In this document: one piece after another, positions 1 to 7,489 of the stretch | Layout of the letters: the number at the start of each line of letters is the position of its first letter | Numbering within the stretch: position 1 is the first letter of the stretch | NCBI GenBank assembly: GCA_030695565.1 | Contig: JAUYRZ010000074.1 | Span: 62,001 to 126,000, forward strand | Source of the DNA: Archangium sp. | GTDB taxonomy: Bacteria > Myxococcota > Myxococcia > Myxococcales > Myxococcaceae | Reading direction: 5' to 3' | DNA length: 64,000 nucleotides | Notes under the pieces: model-generated | Database searches by the model: none | What the model saw: only the letters and a program-made list of their open reading frames with translations | Told to the model about the DNA's origin: nothing | Program-made: the position numbers and the translations under genes

Positions 1-2408
1 TGGTGGTGACCGACGACCTGGTCATCGTTCAGTTCCGCGGCCAGACCGGCGCCTACCTCGAGCCAGCGCCCGGCACGGCCACCCTCGACCTGCTGCGCCT
101 GACGCGGGAAGAGCTGAGGGTCGATGTGCGCGCCGCCCTCGAGCACGCCCGCCAGATCAACACCTTCACCCGCTCCGAGCCTCGCGCGTTGCGCGCCGGT
201 GACAACCAGCGCCGGGTGAGCGTCGAGGTCATTCCCCTGCTGCCGCCCATCGTCGCCGAGCGGCACTTCGTGGTGCTCTTCCGCGAAGAAGCGCCCGTGC
301 CGGCAGGCGAAGTGACCGTGGTCTCCACGGTCAGCGCCGAAACCACCCACCGGGAGATGGAAGAAGGCCTGCGCAGCGAGCTTACTTCGACGCGCACCTA
401 CCTGCAGTCGGTCATCGAGCAGCTCGAGGCAGGCAACGAAGAGCTGCGCGCCTCCAACGAAGAGGTGGTCAGCAGCAACGAAGAACTGCAGAGCACCAAC
501 GAAGAGATGCAGACCGCTCGCGAAGAGCTGCAGGCGACCAACGAAGAGCTCTCGACCGTCAACGACGAGATGGTGCAGCGCAACGCCGAGGCGATGCGCA
601 TCAACGACGACCTCACCAACGTGCTGCACGGCGTGGGCATCGCCATCGTCATCCTCGGGCGTGACTCACGCATTCGCCGCTTCACGCCCGTGGCCGCGAA
701 GCTGCTCAACCTCATCGCCACCGACGTGGGCCGGCCCATCAGCGACATCAAGTCGAACCTGCGCGCGCCCGACCTGCTGGCCCTGGTGGCCGACGCGCTC
801 GAGCACCTTGCCCCCTGCGAGCGCACCGTCACCGATGAGACGGGCCGCTGGTACCAGCTCACCGTGCGGCCGTACCTGACCACCGAGCGCAAGGTCGACG
901 GCACGGTGGTGACCATCGTCGACGTCGACGCGATTCAGCGCGGCAAGTCGATGCTCGCCGAGGCGCTCGCCTACGCCGAAGGCATCGTCGACACCGTGCG
1001 CGACCCGCTGCTGGTGCTCGATGAGCACCGCAAGGTGCGTTCGGCGAACCGCTCGTTCTACCGGAAGTTCCAGGTCAGCCGCGAAGAGCTCGAGGGCAAG
1101 CCGTTCGAGCAGCTGGGCAACCCGCGCTGGGTGCCGCCGGTGTTGATCTCCGCGCTCGATCGCCTCGCCGCGAACGCCGGCCTCGAAGACGCCCGCCTCG
1201 AAGACACCCCCAGCCGCTTCGCGGGGCGCTCGATGCTGGTGTCGGGCCGGCCGCTGCTCCGCTCGGGGCAGGCGCCGTGGGTGCTGCTGGCCTTCGAAGA
1301 TCTCACCGAGCAGATGCGCAGTGACGCGGCGGTGCGCCGCAGTGAACGCGCGCTGCGCGAGATGCTGGGGGCGGCGTCAGAGGCGATCCTCATCGCCAAC
1401 GGCAACGGCCTCATCACCTACGCCAACGAGATGGCGGCCCGCACGTTCGCCTACCCGCTCGAAGAGCTGACCGGCCTGTCGATCGAACGGCTGGTGCCCG
1501 AGGAGCGGCGCGACGAGAAGTACGACAACTTCTCGCCCTCGTCGCAGGGCGTGATGAGCGGCAACCGTGAAGTGCGCGGCCGCCGCAAAGACGGCACCCT
1601 CTTCCCCGCCGAGGTGGGGCTGAGCGTGATGGAAGGCGAGCAGGGCCCGCTGGTGGTGGCCTTCGTGTCAGACGTCACCGCGCGCCACGAGGCGGAAGCG
1701 CGCATCAGCGCCTACAAGAAGAACCTGCAGGAGATGGCCTTCGACGCGGCGCTGGTGGAAGAGCGCAGCCGCCGCAAGCTCGCCGCCGACCTGCACGACA
1801 ACATCGGCCAGACGCTCGCGCTCGCGCAGATTCGTTTGAAGGCCGCGCAGAGCCGGCTGGAGACCGGGGGGGCCGCGAAGGATCTGGGCGAGGGCATCAA
1901 GCTCATCGGCGTCGCCCTGACCGACACCCGCGAGCTCACCTTCGAGCTGAGCCCTCCGGTGCTCTACGACCTGGGGTTGCCCGCGGCCGTGTCGTGGCTG
2001 GGCGAGCAGCTCGAGGCGCAGCACGGGCTGCACGTCGAGGTGGAAGCCGACGTGCCCTTCGGCAAGCTCGAAGACGAGACCGCCGGCCTGCTCTTCCGCG
2101 CGGTGCGCGAGATGCTCACCAACGTGGTCAAGCACGCGAAGACCTCCAAGGCGTCGGTCTCGGTGCACCGCATCGATGGCTCGTTGCAGGTGGTGGTGGC
2201 CGACGAGGGCACCGGCTTCGATTCCAACCGGCTCAAGAGCTACGAGGCGGCCAAGGGCTTCGGGCTCTTCAGCGTGCGCGAGCAGATCACCCGCCTGGGC
2301 GGCACCTTCGAGGCGGTCTCCAGCCCGGCCGCCGGCACCCGCATCACCCTGCAGATTCCGTTGAATGACCGCAAAGCAGTTCAACCCGCTGTTGGAGAAG
2401 TCAAATGA
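1..2408 (+). CDS. CheR/CheB-fusion-type PAS sensor histidine kinase, 5' truncated by the window edge
   Basis: Probable membrane-free sensor kinase that phosphorylates the next gene's product. The visible part (about 801 residues) begins with the stretch that follows the CheR methyltransferase in CheB-CheR-PAS fusions, so CheB/CheR domains probably lie before the window. Domains in order: Glu/Asn-rich coiled coil (about 115-205, repeats of the NEEL type), PAS about 205-310, PAS about 325-435, PAS about 450-560, HisKA_3 dimerisation domain with the phospho-acceptor His in ADLHDN (about residue 598), and HATPase about 695-790 with N box (REMLTNVVKHA) and GFGLFSVREQ. The in-frame GTG at position 3 is not believed to be the real start. 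The stop overlaps the next start codon as ATGA, which indicates translational coupling and a cognate kinase-regulator pair. The presence of CheR/CheB upstream is inference. Confidence 0.9.
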   Translation, partial: VVTDDLVIVQFRGQTGAYLEPAPGTATLDLLRLTREELRVDVRAALEHARQINTFTRSEPRALRAGDNQRRVSVEVIPLLPPIVAERHFVVLFREEAPVPAGEVTVVSTVSAETTHREMEEGLRSELTSTRTYLQSVIEQLEAGNEELRASNEEVVSSNEELQSTNEEMQTAREELQATNEELSTVNDEMVQRNAEAMRINDDLTNVLHGVGIAIVILGRDSRIRRFTPVAAKLLNLIATDVGRPISDIKSNLRAPDLLALVADALEHLAPCERTVTDETGRWYQLTVRPYLTTERKVDGTVVTIVDVDAIQRGKSMLAEALAYAEGIVDTVRDPLLVLDEHRKVRSANRSFYRKFQVSREELEGKPFEQLGNPRWVPPVLISALDRLAANAGLEDARLEDTPSRFAGRSMLVSGRPLLRSGQAPWVLLAFEDLTEQMRSDAAVRRSERALREMLGAASEAILIANGNGLITYANEMAARTFAYPLEELTGLSIERLVPEERRDEKYDNFSPSSQGVMSGNREVRGRRKDGTLFPAEVGLSVMEGEQGPLVVAFVSDVTARHEAEARISAYKKNLQEMAFDAALVEERSRRKLAADLHDNIGQTLALAQIRLKAAQSRLETGGAAKDLGEGIKLIGVALTDTRELTFELSPPVLYDLGLPAAVSWLGEQLEAQHGLHVEVEADVPFGKLEDETAGLLFRAVREMLTNVVKHAKTSKASVSVHRIDGSLQVVVADEGTGFDSNRLKSYEAAKGFGLFSVREQITRLGGTFEAVSSPAAGTRITLQIPLNDRKAVQPAVGEVK

Positions 2409-3049
2409 ACATCCTCCTCGTTGATGACCACCAGATGATGCGTGATGGGCTCAGAGCAGTGCTGGAGCGCGAGAGCGATCTCCACGTGAGCGGCGAGGCG
2501 GCTGACGGCCGCACCGCGCTCGAGCTGTGCTCCACCCTTCACCCCGACGTGGTGGTGATGGACATCGGCATGCCGGGCCTCAACGGCATCGAGGCCACCC
2601 GTCAGGTGACCACGCACCACCCCCGCACCCGCGTGGTGGCGCTCTCGATGAACGCCGATCGCCGCTACGTGCACGCCATGTTCGAAGCGGGCGCCTGGGC
2701 GTACCTGGTGAAGAGCTCGGCGTCTGACGAGCTGATCAGGGCGATCCGCGCGGTGTCGCATGACGAGAAGTACGTCAGCCCCACCGTGGCCAGCGCCGTG
2801 CTCGACGCCTTCGTGGTGGGCCCCAAGGCCACCCAGCGCGACCCGCGCAGCGAGCTCTCGCCCCGCGAGCGTGAAGTGCTGCAACTGCTCGCCGAGGGCA
2901 TGACCTCGAAGGAGATCGCCGGCAAGTTGGACCTGGCCGTGTCGACCATCGAGACCCACCGCAAACAGATCATGGCGAAGCTCGAGCTGCGTTCCGTGGC
3001 GGAGCTGACCAAGTTCGCCATCCGCACCGGGATCACCACGCTCGAGTGA
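2405..3049 (+). CDS. NarL/FixJ-family response regulator (receiver + LuxR HTH)
   Basis: DNA-binding response regulator of 214 residues. Receiver domain 1-120 has the acidic pair D7/D8, phospho-acceptor D53 in VVVMDIGMPG, and conserved K103. A LuxR-type helix-turn-helix occupies about 149-210 (LSPREREVLQLLAEG, then STIETHRKQIM). HisKA_3 kinases usually pair with this regulator class, and the ATGA overlap with the upstream kinase makes that kinase the likely partner. Targets are unknown. All canonical receiver residues are present, so it should be a phosphorylation-controlled transcription factor. Confidence 0.95.
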   Translation: MNILLVDDHQMMRDGLRAVLERESDLHVSGEAADGRTALELCSTLHPDVVVMDIGMPGLNGIEATRQVTTHHPRTRVVALSMNADRRYVHAMFEAGAWAYLVKSSASDELIRAIRAVSHDEKYVSPTVASAVLDAFVVGPKATQRDPRSELSPREREVLQLLAEGMTSKEIAGKLDLAVSTIETHRKQIMAKLELRSVAELTKFAIRTGITTLE

Positions 3050-3457: not shown

Positions 3458-4315
3458 TTGAACGCCACGGTGGTTTTGATTGACCAGGATGCTGTCGCCC
3501 GTGCGTGGGCTGCCCAGGCGTTGGGGGCGAGCGGGTTGACCATTCTGGGGTTCGATTCGGCCAAGACGTTCTTCGCGCTGATGGGCCCTCCGGGGCCGCC
3601 CTGCCTGGTGGTCGACTCCAACCTGCCCGACATGACCTGTCACCAACTGCAGGCCGAGTTGGTGCGCCGCGGGCTGCGGGTGCCGCTGGTGTTCCTGATC
3701 GGCCACGAGCAGATCGAGCTGGCCATCGCCTTGATGAAGGCGGGCGCGGTCGACGTGCTGGTCAAGCCGGTCGACGTCGACGAGCTCAAGCGGCGCATTC
3801 ACGCGGTGCTGGCGGCCGGTGAACGCGCCAGGGCGCACGTCAACGCAGCGCGGGAGCGGTTGGGCCGCCTCACGCAGCGGGAGCTCGAGGTGGTGATGCT
3901 GGCCACCAGCGGCTTGAGCAACAAGGACATCGCCGATCACCTGTCGATCAGCTTCCGCACCGTCGAGGTGCATCGCCGCAACGCCATGCGCAAGACGGGC
4001 ACCTCGAACATCGTCGAGCTGACGCACTTCGTGGGCAGCGCGTGGAGCGCCGATGCCGCGGGCGCCGACGGTACCCACCGCCTGGAGGTGCTCACCGAGC
4101 GGGAACGCGAGATCCTGCAACTGGGGAGCGACGGGCTCACCAATAAAGCGATCGCCACGCGCCTCTCCATCAGCGCGCGCACCGTGGAAACCCACCGGGG
4201 AAATGCGTCCCGCAAGGTCGAGCCGGGGCTTGAAACGGCCTCTCCCGAACCCGCGAAGGATCAGCTCTCACTGTGGGGTACGGGCGAACCCTTACGTGCA
4301 GTTGGAGATTCCTAA
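3458..4315 (+). CDS. FixJ-like response regulator with two tandem LuxR HTH domains
   Basis: A 285-residue regulator with receiver 1-118 (D9/D11, phospho-acceptor D53 in LVVDSNLPD, K103 in VLVKPVD) followed by two helix-turn-helix repeats rather than one. The first (about 138-192, LTQRELEVVML ... FRTVEVHRRNAM) is complete. The second (about 212-255, LTEREREILQL ... ARTVETHRGNAS) has good recognition helices but loses its C-terminal helix and ends in an unrelated Pro/Glu-rich tail. The start is a TTG at 3458 preceded by a G-rich ribosome site (GGGGGG, 3446-3452); no better in-frame start is visible. It stands between the NarL-type pair and two single-receiver genes on the same strand. Function beyond DNA binding is unknown. 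Confidence 0.85.
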   Translation: MNATVVLIDQDAVARAWAAQALGASGLTILGFDSAKTFFALMGPPGPPCLVVDSNLPDMTCHQLQAELVRRGLRVPLVFLIGHEQIELAIALMKAGAVDVLVKPVDVDELKRRIHAVLAAGERARAHVNAARERLGRLTQRELEVVMLATSGLSNKDIADHLSISFRTVEVHRRNAMRKTGTSNIVELTHFVGSAWSADAAGADGTHRLEVLTEREREILQLGSDGLTNKAIATRLSISARTVETHRGNASRKVEPGLETASPEPAKDQLSLWGTGEPLRAVGDS

Positions 4316-4387: not shown

Positions 4388-4813
4388 ATGAAACGTAGAG
4401 ACGCGAGGTTTCTCGTGGTCGACGATGTTCCTTTGTCCCGGGTGGCCACGCACCACGCGCTGCGGGCCCTGGGGTGCCGGGTGATCGACGAAGCATCGCA
4501 GTGCCCTCGCGCCCTCGAGCTGCTCTCCGCGCAGCACTACGACCTGGTGATCACCAACTGGAACATGGCCGACATGGGGGGCCGCGAGTTGCTGCAGCTG
4601 ATCCGGAGCACTCCGCTCGCGGCTGGGACTCCGGTCGTCATTGCCACCCCGGTCACGGCGGAGGTCGTCGCCGAAGCAGCGGAGGCCGGCGTCAGCGCCT
4701 TCCTCCCGCGCCCGTTCGGGTTTCAGACCCTCGAAGAGGTGCTGCGCATCTTCATCGGCAAGCCCTCCGACGAACCGACTCGTTCGCCCGCACAACGCAC
4801 CTTCGTCTCCTGA
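4388..4813 (+). CDS. Pseudo-receiver protein (CheY-like, phospho-acceptor Asp replaced by Asn)
   Basis: Single-domain CheY-like protein of 141 residues. It keeps the acidic pair D12/D13 but has Asn at position 57 (VITNWNMADMGG) where the phospho-acceptor Asp is expected, and Arg108 (LPRPF) where the conserved Lys is expected. It is therefore predicted not to be phosphorylated in the normal way. The neighbour starting at 4850 is a canonical receiver with similar sequence (VITDWYMPRASG), so the two look like a duplicated pair of which one has degenerated or changed role. A GGAG ribosome site lies at 4375-4378. Possible roles are a constitutive or phosphorylation-independent binding partner; this is inference. 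Confidence 0.9.
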   Translation: MKRRDARFLVVDDVPLSRVATHHALRALGCRVIDEASQCPRALELLSAQHYDLVITNWNMADMGGRELLQLIRSTPLAAGTPVVIATPVTAEVVAEAAEAGVSAFLPRPFGFQTLEEVLRIFIGKPSDEPTRSPAQRTFVS

Positions 4814-4849: not shown

Positions 4850-5299
4850 ATGAACCGAACCAATACCCGCCTCCTGGTCGTCGACGACAGCATCTCCATG
4901 CGGCACATCATCTGCGACCTGTTGCACGAACTGGGTTTCCCCAACGTCGACGAGGCGGGTGACGGCGCCGCGGCGCTCGAGCTGTTCCAACGCACCGCGT
5001 ACGACGTGGTGATCACAGATTGGTACATGCCGCGCGCGAGCGGCATCGATCTGCTGCGCGCCATTCGCCACAGCCCCGAGCGCAACGAGACGCCGGTGCT
5101 GGTGCTCACCGGGCACGTGACCACCGCGCGCGTGGTCGAAGCGATCGAAGCAGGCGCCAACGGCTTCGTGGCCAAGCCCTTCGTGGCCCCGTCGTTGTGC
5201 GAGAAGGTGTTGCGCCTGGTGGCGGCGTTGCCCCCCGTGGCTGAAGCGAGCAACGCCTTCGCGCAGGCCTCTTCGGCGTCGATGGGTGCTCGCCCATGA
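4850..5299 (+). CDS. Single-domain response regulator (CheY-like)
   Basis: A 149-residue receiver with all key residues: D12/D13, phospho-acceptor D57 in VITDWYMP, T87 in LVLTGH, and K109 in VAKPF. There is no output domain, only a short Ala/Ser-rich tail, so it should act by protein-protein contact, as CheY or Spo0F do. It follows the pseudo-receiver by 36 bases and overlaps the next gene by ATGA, so the three are probably one transcription and translation unit. The cognate kinase is not identifiable from sequence; the truncated kinase at the left edge is a candidate. Confidence 0.93.
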   Translation: MNRTNTRLLVVDDSISMRHIICDLLHELGFPNVDEAGDGAAALELFQRTAYDVVITDWYMPRASGIDLLRAIRHSPERNETPVLVLTGHVTTARVVEAIEAGANGFVAKPFVAPSLCEKVLRLVAALPPVAEASNAFAQASSASMGARP

Positions 5300-6009
5300 A
5301 CACCTGGAGTGTCGAGCAGCCCCGAGCCCTCAAGAATCACCAGCGGCACATCGACGATCGTTCGGTGGAGGTGCCCGCGTCGCGTTGCAACTTGGGGGGG
5401 CTGCTGTACGTGCCGCCCAAGCCGCGCGCGGCGGTGATCATCGCTCACCCCAGCGGCATCAGCCGGCTCTCGCGCCGTGAACGGTTCGTGGCGGGCAGCC
5501 TGGCCCGGGCGGGCTTCACCACCCTGCTCATCGACCTGCTCACCGAAGAGGAAGACGAGGTGCGTGAAGGCGCGCACTGCGACATTCCCCTGCTGGCCGA
5601 CCGCCTCTTGTGCGCGGCGCGTTGGTTGAGCACCACCGGCGGCGCCGACGCGTTGCCCCTGGGCTACTTCGGGGTGGGCAATGGCTCGGCGGCGGCCCTG
5701 GTGGCCACGGCCATCGAGCCTACCCGCGTGCTGGGGCTGGTCTCGCGCGGCGGCCGGCCCGACTACGCGGGCGCTTCGCTCTTACTCACGCGGGTGCCTT
5801 CACTCTTCATCGTCAACGGCAACGATCCGCACGAGCTGGCGGCCAATCGGGCCGCGTGTGGCCTGTCGCCGCACCGCCGCCTCGACGTGGTGCCTTCAGC
5901 GGGTGGTTCGTTCCTCGAAGGGGAAGCCCTCGATCGCGTCACCACGGTGAGCGCTGCGTGGTTCACGCACTGGCTCGACCCGGTGTTCGCGTTGCCTGAC
6001 TGGGTTTGA
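5296..6009 (+). CDS. Dienelactone-hydrolase-like alpha/beta protein lacking catalytic Ser and His
   Basis: A 237-residue alpha/beta-hydrolase-fold protein resembling the dienelactone hydrolase family whose members carry LLIDLLT, GYFGASTG, VSRGGRPD and GATHLFEE motifs (family pattern from knowledge). Here LLIDLLT, VSRGGRPD and the acid residue D177 (VNGNDPHEL) are kept. The nucleophile elbow reads GYFGVGNGS, with Gly128 in place of Ser, and the histidine segment reads SAGGSFLEG, with Gly at about 204 in place of His. It is therefore predicted to be catalytically dead. Its start codon overlaps the stop of the receiver gene (ATGA), tying it to the signalling cluster. A role as a binding or sensor protein is inference. 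Confidence 0.85.
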   Translation: MNTWSVEQPRALKNHQRHIDDRSVEVPASRCNLGGLLYVPPKPRAAVIIAHPSGISRLSRRERFVAGSLARAGFTTLLIDLLTEEEDEVREGAHCDIPLLADRLLCAARWLSTTGGADALPLGYFGVGNGSAAALVATAIEPTRVLGLVSRGGRPDYAGASLLLTRVPSLFIVNGNDPHELAANRAACGLSPHRRLDVVPSAGGSFLEGEALDRVTTVSAAWFTHWLDPVFALPDWV

Positions 6010-6074: not shown

Positions 6075-7415
6075 TCAGGTTCCGAAGGGCCAGGTATCGG
6101 GTACCTGGTCGAAGGCCGGTTGATTGAGGAGCGGGCTGAGCGCCTTCGTCTCGTCGAACCACACGTATTCATCGAACTGCAGCGCGAGGCTCGCCTCGAA
6201 GTAGTGGCTCATCAGCTCGGCCGCGGGCCGGTACACCACGCCGATGGCGCGCTCGAGGCGCCGGGGCATCAGCTCTTCACGCAGCGCCAGGCGCTTCGGC
6301 GACCGCAGCGGCAGCATGAAGGCCGGCGTGCCCGTGGCGTGGAACAACGCCTCGTAGCTGCCCGCCTGGGCCGGTTTGAGGCGCATCTTCTCAGCCTCCT
6401 CGCCCCAGCCTTTGGCGGCCAGCACCGAGCCGGTGTTGGTGCCGAAGCCCACGCTGTAGGCCTTGGCGCCGTAGTGCCGCCGGCACAGGTGGCCCAGGTT
6501 GAGCTCGCCGCGATCGACGTGCTCCGTGGCCGCCGCGTCACCCACGTGGGAGTTGTGCGCCCACACGATGGCCTTCGACTGCGAGCCGCCGGCGTGCAGC
6601 AACGCCTGCAGGGTGTCGAACATGTGCTGCTCGCGCAGGTTCCACGACTCGACCGAGCCGTAATACATCACGCGGTAGTAGCGCTCGGCGTTGGCCACCA
6701 CGCGCGCGTTGCAGACCGCGTCGAAGTAGCGGTCGCGATCGTGGCGGCCGTACTCGATGCGGCGCTCGAGCAGCTCCTCGAGTTGTTTGACCACCGCGCC
6801 TTCGGCTTCTTCGTATTGCCGGTTCAGCGGCGCGTGACCGTAGGCGGCGGGGTCGAACTGCCACTGGGTGAGCAGGCCATACCGCGTGCGCGCCACCTCG
6901 GCGGCCGCGGGATCCAACCTGCCCAGCGCGTCGATCACCTCGGAGGCCGAGATGAACTGGCTGTAGAGATCGAGCCCGAAGAAGCCGGTGCGCTGCGAAG
7001 GCGCGCGCACTTCTGCGTTGTGCGCGCGCAACCACTCCATCAGGTCGACCGTCTCGTAGTTGCGCCACAACCACTGCGGGAACCGGTCGAAGGCCTTCCA
7101 GGTGCGCTGATCTTTCGGCAGGTGGCGCACGTGGCGATCGACGCGCGAGGCGTCAGGCCAGTCGGCTTCTGCCGCGAGGATGGTGAAGCCGTGGTGTTTG
7201 ACCAGCTCGCGCGTCAGGCGTGCGCGCCAACGATAAAATTCCGACGTCCCGTGCGTGGCGGCGCCGAACAGCACCACCTTCGCGTCACCCACCCGCTCGA
7301 GAAAGCCGCGCACGTCCGCCGTCTCGATTCCATTGATGGGCTCGTGCACTTCTCGAACGAGTTTCTCGAGCCCATCGTTCAGCTGAAGAGTTTCCATCCT
7401 GCCCGAACGCTGCAT
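6075..7415 (-). CDS. Erythromycin esterase family protein
   Basis: Member of the EreA/EreB-like family (also found beside phosphoribosyltransferase or isoaspartate methyltransferase genes). About 446 residues from the chosen ATG at 7415, which has a G-rich ribosome site (GAGGGG) upstream; ATG at 7397 is an alternative. Conserved segments visible are ATHGTSEFYRWR (His about 55), LAAEADWPDA and VWAHNSHVGDA, matching the family's catalytic region. The segment that is normally GEATHG reads GAATHG, so the usual Glu is Ala (about residue 52). Most chromosomal members have no demonstrated macrolide activity, so antibiotic resistance should not be assumed. It is divergent from the 7490 gene. Confidence 0.88.
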   Translation of the reverse strand: MQRSGRMETLQLNDGLEKLVREVHEPINGIETADVRGFLERVGDAKVVLFGAATHGTSEFYRWRARLTRELVKHHGFTILAAEADWPDASRVDRHVRHLPKDQRTWKAFDRFPQWLWRNYETVDLMEWLRAHNAEVRAPSQRTGFFGLDLYSQFISASEVIDALGRLDPAAAEVARTRYGLLTQWQFDPAAYGHAPLNRQYEEAEGAVVKQLEELLERRIEYGRHDRDRYFDAVCNARVVANAERYYRVMYYGSVESWNLREQHMFDTLQALLHAGGSQSKAIVWAHNSHVGDAAATEHVDRGELNLGHLCRRHYGAKAYSVGFGTNTGSVLAAKGWGEEAEKMRLKPAQAGSYEALFHATGTPAFMLPLRSPKRLALREELMPRRLERAIGVVYRPAAELMSHYFEASLALQFDEYVWFDETKALSPLLNQPAFDQVPDTWPFGT

Positions 7416-7489
7416 GTCACATGCCCCCCTCACCGTTCGCCCCGGTTGTTCTTTCGCTTCATGGCGCGTGCAGTGCACGACGCTCCTGG

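Follow-up and report, generated by a model that had tools for sequence, protein, structure and literature searches.

A gene of the alpha/beta-hydrolase fold in the window, by which we mean the whole analysed stretch of 64,000 nucleotides from Archangium sp., has lost its catalytic Ser and His and directly follows, with a 4-bp overlap, the gene of a phosphorylatable single-domain receiver (Table 1). Because the catalytic residues are lost, yet selection maintains the gene directly behind the receiver gene, the dead hydrolase has, as judged from sequence, probably become a non-enzymatic signalling partner. On balance we favour, with some reserve, a model in which a pseudoenzyme kept by selection was recruited as the partner or output of a phospho-receiver within a stress island.

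Table 1. Positions in the window of the pseudo-hydrolase gene, its former active-site motifs and the neighbouring genes
Feature	Position	Strand	Details
PAS-HisKA_3-HATPase kinase, 3' part	3..2408	+	Domain matches; upstream part precedes the window and carries CheB/CheR domains
NarL/LuxR-type response regulator	2405..3049	+	4-bp overlap with kinase gene
Response regulator, receiver and two LuxR-type HTH domains	3458..4315	+	Domain matches
Pseudo-receiver	4388..4813	+	Acceptor Asp to Asn, Lys to Arg; residue comparison
Single-domain CheY-like receiver	4850..5299	+	D12/D13, D57, T87 and K109 intact
ATGA start/stop overlap, 4 bp (translational coupling)	5296..5299	+	Receiver stop and pseudo-hydrolase start
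Pseudo-hydrolase gene	5296..6009	+	237 aa, ATG start; 2O2G-type alpha/beta hydrolase without catalytic Ser/His
Former oxyanion loop HGSG	5446..5457	+	Now H-P-S-G; residues 51-54, 2O2G alignment
Former nucleophile elbow GASTG	5671..5685	+	Now G-V-G-N-G; residues 126-130, 2O2G alignment
Acid residue D177, kept	5824..5826	+	Opposite acid position in 2O2G alignment
Former His motif ATHLFEE	5896..5922	+	Now S-A-G-G-S-F-L-E-G; residues 201-209
Erythromycin-esterase (Ere) family protein, convergent	6075..7478	-	GEATHG to GAATHG; motif comparison

Fold, active site and clade of the pseudo-hydrolase

By sequence, the closest solved relative of the window protein is 2O2G, which was also the sole good PDB match (phmmer E 7e-40, residues 21-227). 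The AlphaFold2 model, computed from a 40-sequence alignment (pLDDT 88.5, pTM 0.87), shows the strand and helix order of an alpha/beta hydrolase, so that a complete fold is predicted, and its top structural match is again 2O2G (Foldseek E 4.9e-19; Z 30.2, rmsd 1.9 A over 212 residues, 42% identity). A complete alpha/beta-hydrolase fold is likewise predicted by AlphaFold (pLDDT 88.8) for the divergent relative at locus L047, which has 43% identity to the window protein. In sequence as well as in fold, the similarity spans the entire domain and thus places the protein among the homologues of the 2O2G-type dienelactone hydrolase family, and the features of an active enzyme of this family, i.e. the Ser-Asp-His triad and the HGSG of the oxyanion loop, are absent from it. 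The Pfam model DLH (PF01738) gave no match to the window protein at E up to 10; its gathering cut-off was passed by three of four intact relatives tested. Naming the protein by Pfam or NCBIfam was rejected, as the only hits were chance matches to phosphoribosyltransferase models (E 0.26 and 0.13).

From the motifs alone, the first-pass annotation had read Gly in place of both the nucleophile Ser and the catalytic His, with the acid residue retained, and the alignment to 2O2G bears out all three points: Ser is replaced by Gly128, His by Gly204, with ASHLFEE of 2O2G corresponding to AGGSFLEG, and D177 stands where 2O2G has its acid. Further losses are G52P in the oxyanion loop and the change of N62 to E. 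No G-x-S-x-G occurs elsewhere in the whole 237 aa, and a search for another alignment with a Ser at the elbow found none, the only candidate, S131 just after GVGNG, being Ala in all seven other main-clade members.

In a maximum-likelihood tree, nine proteins, including that of the window, form one dead clade with branch support of 98/98, and all nine are without Ser and His, i.e. the loss extends to all close homologues, which had been proposed as a check on recruitment. S/D/H are present in 41 of the 54 aligned sequences. Since the same losses recur through a nine-sequence clade under purifying selection, and 27 of the 31 tree rows outside it keep the Ser along with Asp and His, the catalytic loss is not a matter of chance. 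The absence of Ser requires four changes on the tree in total, and all nine dead sequences lie on one side of a branch; the clade is therefore compatible with one loss, with about three further losses outside, although the placement of L044 and L048 is less sure because of their long branches. As part of the explanation preferred here, it is reasonably likely that Ser, His and the oxyanion-loop Gly disappeared a single time, in the common ancestor of this small clade of myxobacteria.

Of the 96 family genomes searched, those of two congeneric species contain close relatives (83% and 80% identity), and additional paralogues or homologues are present in G010 (three of them) as well as in G011, G046 and G052. 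A profile search of 195 genomes found no window-clade members elsewhere in the phylum; eight profile rows scored at least 295 bits and all others less than 190 bits, a gap which is partly by construction, as the profile was built from these same eight rows. A scan of the species-genome collection recovered only three of the same loci. The dead-hydrolase clade is so far confined to a few related genera. Outside the main clade, Ser loss was also seen in L037:4299-4985, L045:3222-3905, L042:11607-12323 (minus strand) and L078, where the nucleophile is replaced by G, G, N and H, respectively; none of these four has a receiver gene directly upstream.

Coupling to the receiver and gene neighbourhood

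The partner gene encodes a CheY-like phospho-receiver with the acidic pair DD, the acceptor D57, T87 and K109. The ATGA overlap agrees with the earlier description of the two genes as translationally coupled, and the conservation of this coupling, which had been named as a second check on recruitment, was found as well: a receiver-domain gene lies next upstream on the same strand in all eight dead-clade loci whose upstream DNA could be read (the ninth, in G052, is at a contig end), whereas none of 39 distinct loci with intact homologues has one within 900 bp upstream (418 bases only for L031). Fisher's test, computed with 40 intact homologues, gives p ~3e-9 for this difference, and relatedness of the sequences makes its true weight smaller. 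In six of the eight loci the upstream genes are single-domain receivers with a 4-bp ATGA or GTGA overlap; the remaining two are a hybrid kinase ending in a C-terminal receiver (L040) and a LuxR-type regulator (L044).

Moreover, the receiver subfamily (E<=1e-24) occurs in five of the 96 family genomes, all five of which carry the dead hydrolase (p ~1e-7, with a weight again lowered by relatedness), and two genomes of the same genus, 79-80% complete, have neither the receiver subfamily nor the dead hydrolase. Across the six coupled pairs, the pairwise identities of the two partners correlate with r 0.94 (11 of 720 permutations were as high), a correlation which also follows from common descent. 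At two loci, L091 and L086, the receiver and its pseudo-receiver neighbour are found without the hydrolase; hence the hydrolase either joined a receiver pair or dropped out of one, and the receivers do not need it.

The genes in the window are ordered as PAS histidine kinase, LuxR regulator, double-HTH regulator, pseudo-receiver, receiver, pseudo-hydrolase and convergent Ere gene, past which lie CBS, DJ-1/PfpI, kinase and Hsp20 genes, and the order regulator, pseudo-receiver, receiver and hydrolase is also present in L038, L039 and L042. The upstream kinase has an H-box, DLHDNIGQ, and an N-box-like NVVKHA; it appears to be a CheB-CheR-PAS-HisKA_3 fusion (window 3-2408, L037:12387-14000), which is about 1330 aa long in L039:2271-6272 and L042. 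The receiver with a tandem LuxR-type HTH pair at 3458-4315 is unusual, and this arrangement appears to be kept in the orthologues L039 and L038. The loss seen in the pseudo-receiver is shared by five additional loci, where the acceptor is replaced by N, R or T and the true receiver is always adjacent.

The Ere neighbour has lost its active-site Glu in the window and at two orthologous loci, L100 and L101 (A, A and T): the motif reads GAATHG in the window and in G010, and GTSTQG in G008, where the catalytic His is changed to Q too. Glu and His are kept in all 27 other Ere homologues examined (E/H/E/H). In a studied Ere enzyme, E47A, the change that corresponds to this Glu loss, slows catalysis, and activity falls 1000-fold when H50 is mutated (PMC7979712). 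By its motif, the Ere-like neighbour is a putative second decatalysed enzyme beside the first. The nearest intact Ere homologues (L102, L103, L104 and L105) appear, as judged by eye, to be the C-terminal portions of fusion proteins that also carry a domain resembling protein-isoaspartate methyltransferase; a hydrolase-Ere fusion was considered for the long frames L102 and L105 and rejected, as no hydrolase domain was found in them and the extra part looks like this methyltransferase.

Proposed role and alternative readings

Clade-wide catalytic loss under purifying selection and a conserved gene coupling to a partner are the marks of pseudoenzyme recruitment. The loss of the catalytic residues, the retention of the predicted fold, selection, and the conserved coupling and gene order are directly supported; from these we infer the following scheme. 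The pseudo-hydrolase would be made as a coupled pair with the stand-alone receiver, which the upstream CheB/CheR-PAS histidine kinase would phosphorylate; the receiver would bind the pseudo-hydrolase in dependence on its phosphorylation, and the pseudo-hydrolase would serve as an output or adaptor domain that is detached from the receiver. Perhaps under the control of a small molecule bound where the substrate once sat, it might then adjust the kinase and LuxR-regulator pathway of the stress island with its Hsp20, CBS and Ere-like proteins. Against this model, adjacency and shared ancestry can yield association without interaction, most carriers belonging to one genus, and the upstream receivers of L040 and L044 differ from the usual stand-alone receiver. 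The first-pass annotation had suggested recruitment as a binding or sensory protein; the sequences support recruitment as a non-enzymatic receiver partner, and a binding or sensory role in particular is a possibility beyond that. More speculatively, and with doubtful prospects, the pseudo-receiver, the true receiver, the pseudo-hydrolase and the degraded Ere homologue, whose genes lie together, might form a receiver-controlled non-catalytic complex, in which the output domain of a response regulator is a separate dead hydrolase. If so, one lineage would have converted an entire former enzyme module into components of signalling.

The protein might instead sense a ligand by itself, its former pocket binding a small molecule and the receiver being merely a co-expressed neighbour or a downstream target. 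The predicted fold is fully kept, and GID1 is a lipase that became a hormone receptor by losing the His of its active site (PMC3531792). However, the former active-site columns vary inside the clade, with G or D at the elbow followed by N, H, G, T or P, with G, A or P at the His position and with D, P, C or R at the acid position, whereas a shared specific ligand should hold some of them. Thus the non-conservation of the former catalytic positions lowers this reading, which we consider unlikely.

Between the three orthologues, dN/dS (NG86) of the pseudo-hydrolase is 0.16-0.28, similar to that of the receiver (0.16-0.29), and it is 0.20-0.32 for the Ere-like neighbour and 0.15-0.16 for the pseudo-receiver. 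At 21 positions (one being the start Met, which reflects only trimmed intact rows) residues are conserved in the dead clade yet different in intact relatives, suggesting new constraint rather than drift. Clade-specific residues include 62, 70, 87, 90, 93, 108, 138, 161, 163, 164, 178, 183, 219, 221 and 226. Together with the varying catalytic columns, these clade-specific positions indicate that the protein is, so far as sequence tells, constrained for something other than its old chemistry. The gene could also be a relic on its way out, degenerating and kept by chance beside the receiver; since Ser was lost on about four branches of the sampled family tree, activity seems dispensable in the lineage. 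This reading is already disfavoured by the dN/dS values, by a frame open in all species, by the 21 positions and by the high-confidence fold, and is very unlikely; a pseudogene was rejected on dN/dS, fold confidence and conserved open frames.

That the protein is still an enzyme, with a different chemistry or a rearranged active site, is hardly more than a slight chance. The acid D177 is kept in most clade members (it is lost in L041, L042 and L048), and L047 has an Asp at the nucleophile position, as in dehalogenases and epoxide hydrolases. Nevertheless, the clade shares no conserved His column, different residues stand at the elbow, and all eight members that were compared have Pro or Ala at oxyanion-loop position 52, where the intact family has Gly. 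The only polar residues that the clade conserves strictly are R63, T76, D87, D96, R103, W110, Y124, R151, S219, W222 and W226, and most of these are also common to the intact family; Asp as a new nucleophile was rejected, as it is found in L047 alone and there without a His. Least probable of all is a regulatory dead subunit dimerising with an active paralogue in the manner of iRhom, for although intact paralogues occur in G010 and G011, the second family copy in G008 is also without Ser, the only other clear family member in the window genome, about 15 kb upstream, also lacks Ser and His (GAGTG, ATRLFEE), and no intact paralogue was found in this fragmented assembly.

Relation to known hydrolase-fold proteins

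Most known cases of a hydrolase fold that now serves as a receptor or adaptor come from plants and animals. The studied bacterial case, RsbQ, still needs its triad, whereas the window clade is fully decatalysed and receiver-coupled. With intact relatives in neighbouring genera, the dead clade offers a clean system for the transition from enzyme to signalling partner, and the same system suits the question of which targets are served by single-domain receivers that have no output domain. Literature searches found no report of a receiver-coupled hydrolase pseudoenzyme.

The nearest comparison is 2O2G itself, a dienelactone hydrolase-like protein of Anabaena variabilis with the same fold; it and most relatives keep Ser-Asp-His, whereas Ser, His and the oxyanion Gly are all gone from the window protein. 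Elsewhere, the hydrolase family occurs in phosphoribosyltransferase-hydrolase fusions of Rhodococcus plasmids, among Hsp20, CBS and universal-stress genes, and in phosphoribosyltransferase-hydrolase-Ere fusions of Salipiger. These keep the same stress-island company (Ere, Hsp20, CBS) as the window gene, which, unlike them, is a separate gene behind a receiver gene. Rv2030c and Rv0571c of the DosR regulon are fusion proteins of this phosphoribosyltransferase, alpha/beta-hydrolase and erythromycin-esterase kind.

RsbQ-RsbP is a single sensing module made up of a PAS domain and a hydrolase whose triad is required (PMC3183031). As in the window, an alpha/beta-hydrolase gene adjoins a signalling gene, and the pairing is conserved with variable outputs; however, the window pair has neither the intact triad nor an adjacent gene with an N-terminal PAS domain, its partner being a stand-alone receiver. 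GID1 and KAI2/D14 are plant proteins with a helical lid which also use the hydrolase fold in signalling. GID1 has lost its His but keeps Ser and Asp for ligand contact, whereas the window clade has lost Ser too and does not conserve the former catalytic positions. FrsA is stimulated by dephosphorylated EIIA-Glc (PMC6877527), and in the 3OUR complex a hydrolase-like protein (Foldseek E 2e-9) is bound by a phosphorylation-controlled regulator; it differs from the window protein in its family and in that its regulator comes from the sugar phosphotransferase system and is no two-component receiver. A paper on bacterial pseudo-receivers (PMC12632262) describes the kind of gene at 4388 and concerns receivers. 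By these tests the window protein belongs to none of the RsbQ-RsbP, FrsA and GID1 families; it is part of an alpha/beta-hydrolase-fold clade of pseudoenzymes that is linked with phospho-receivers.
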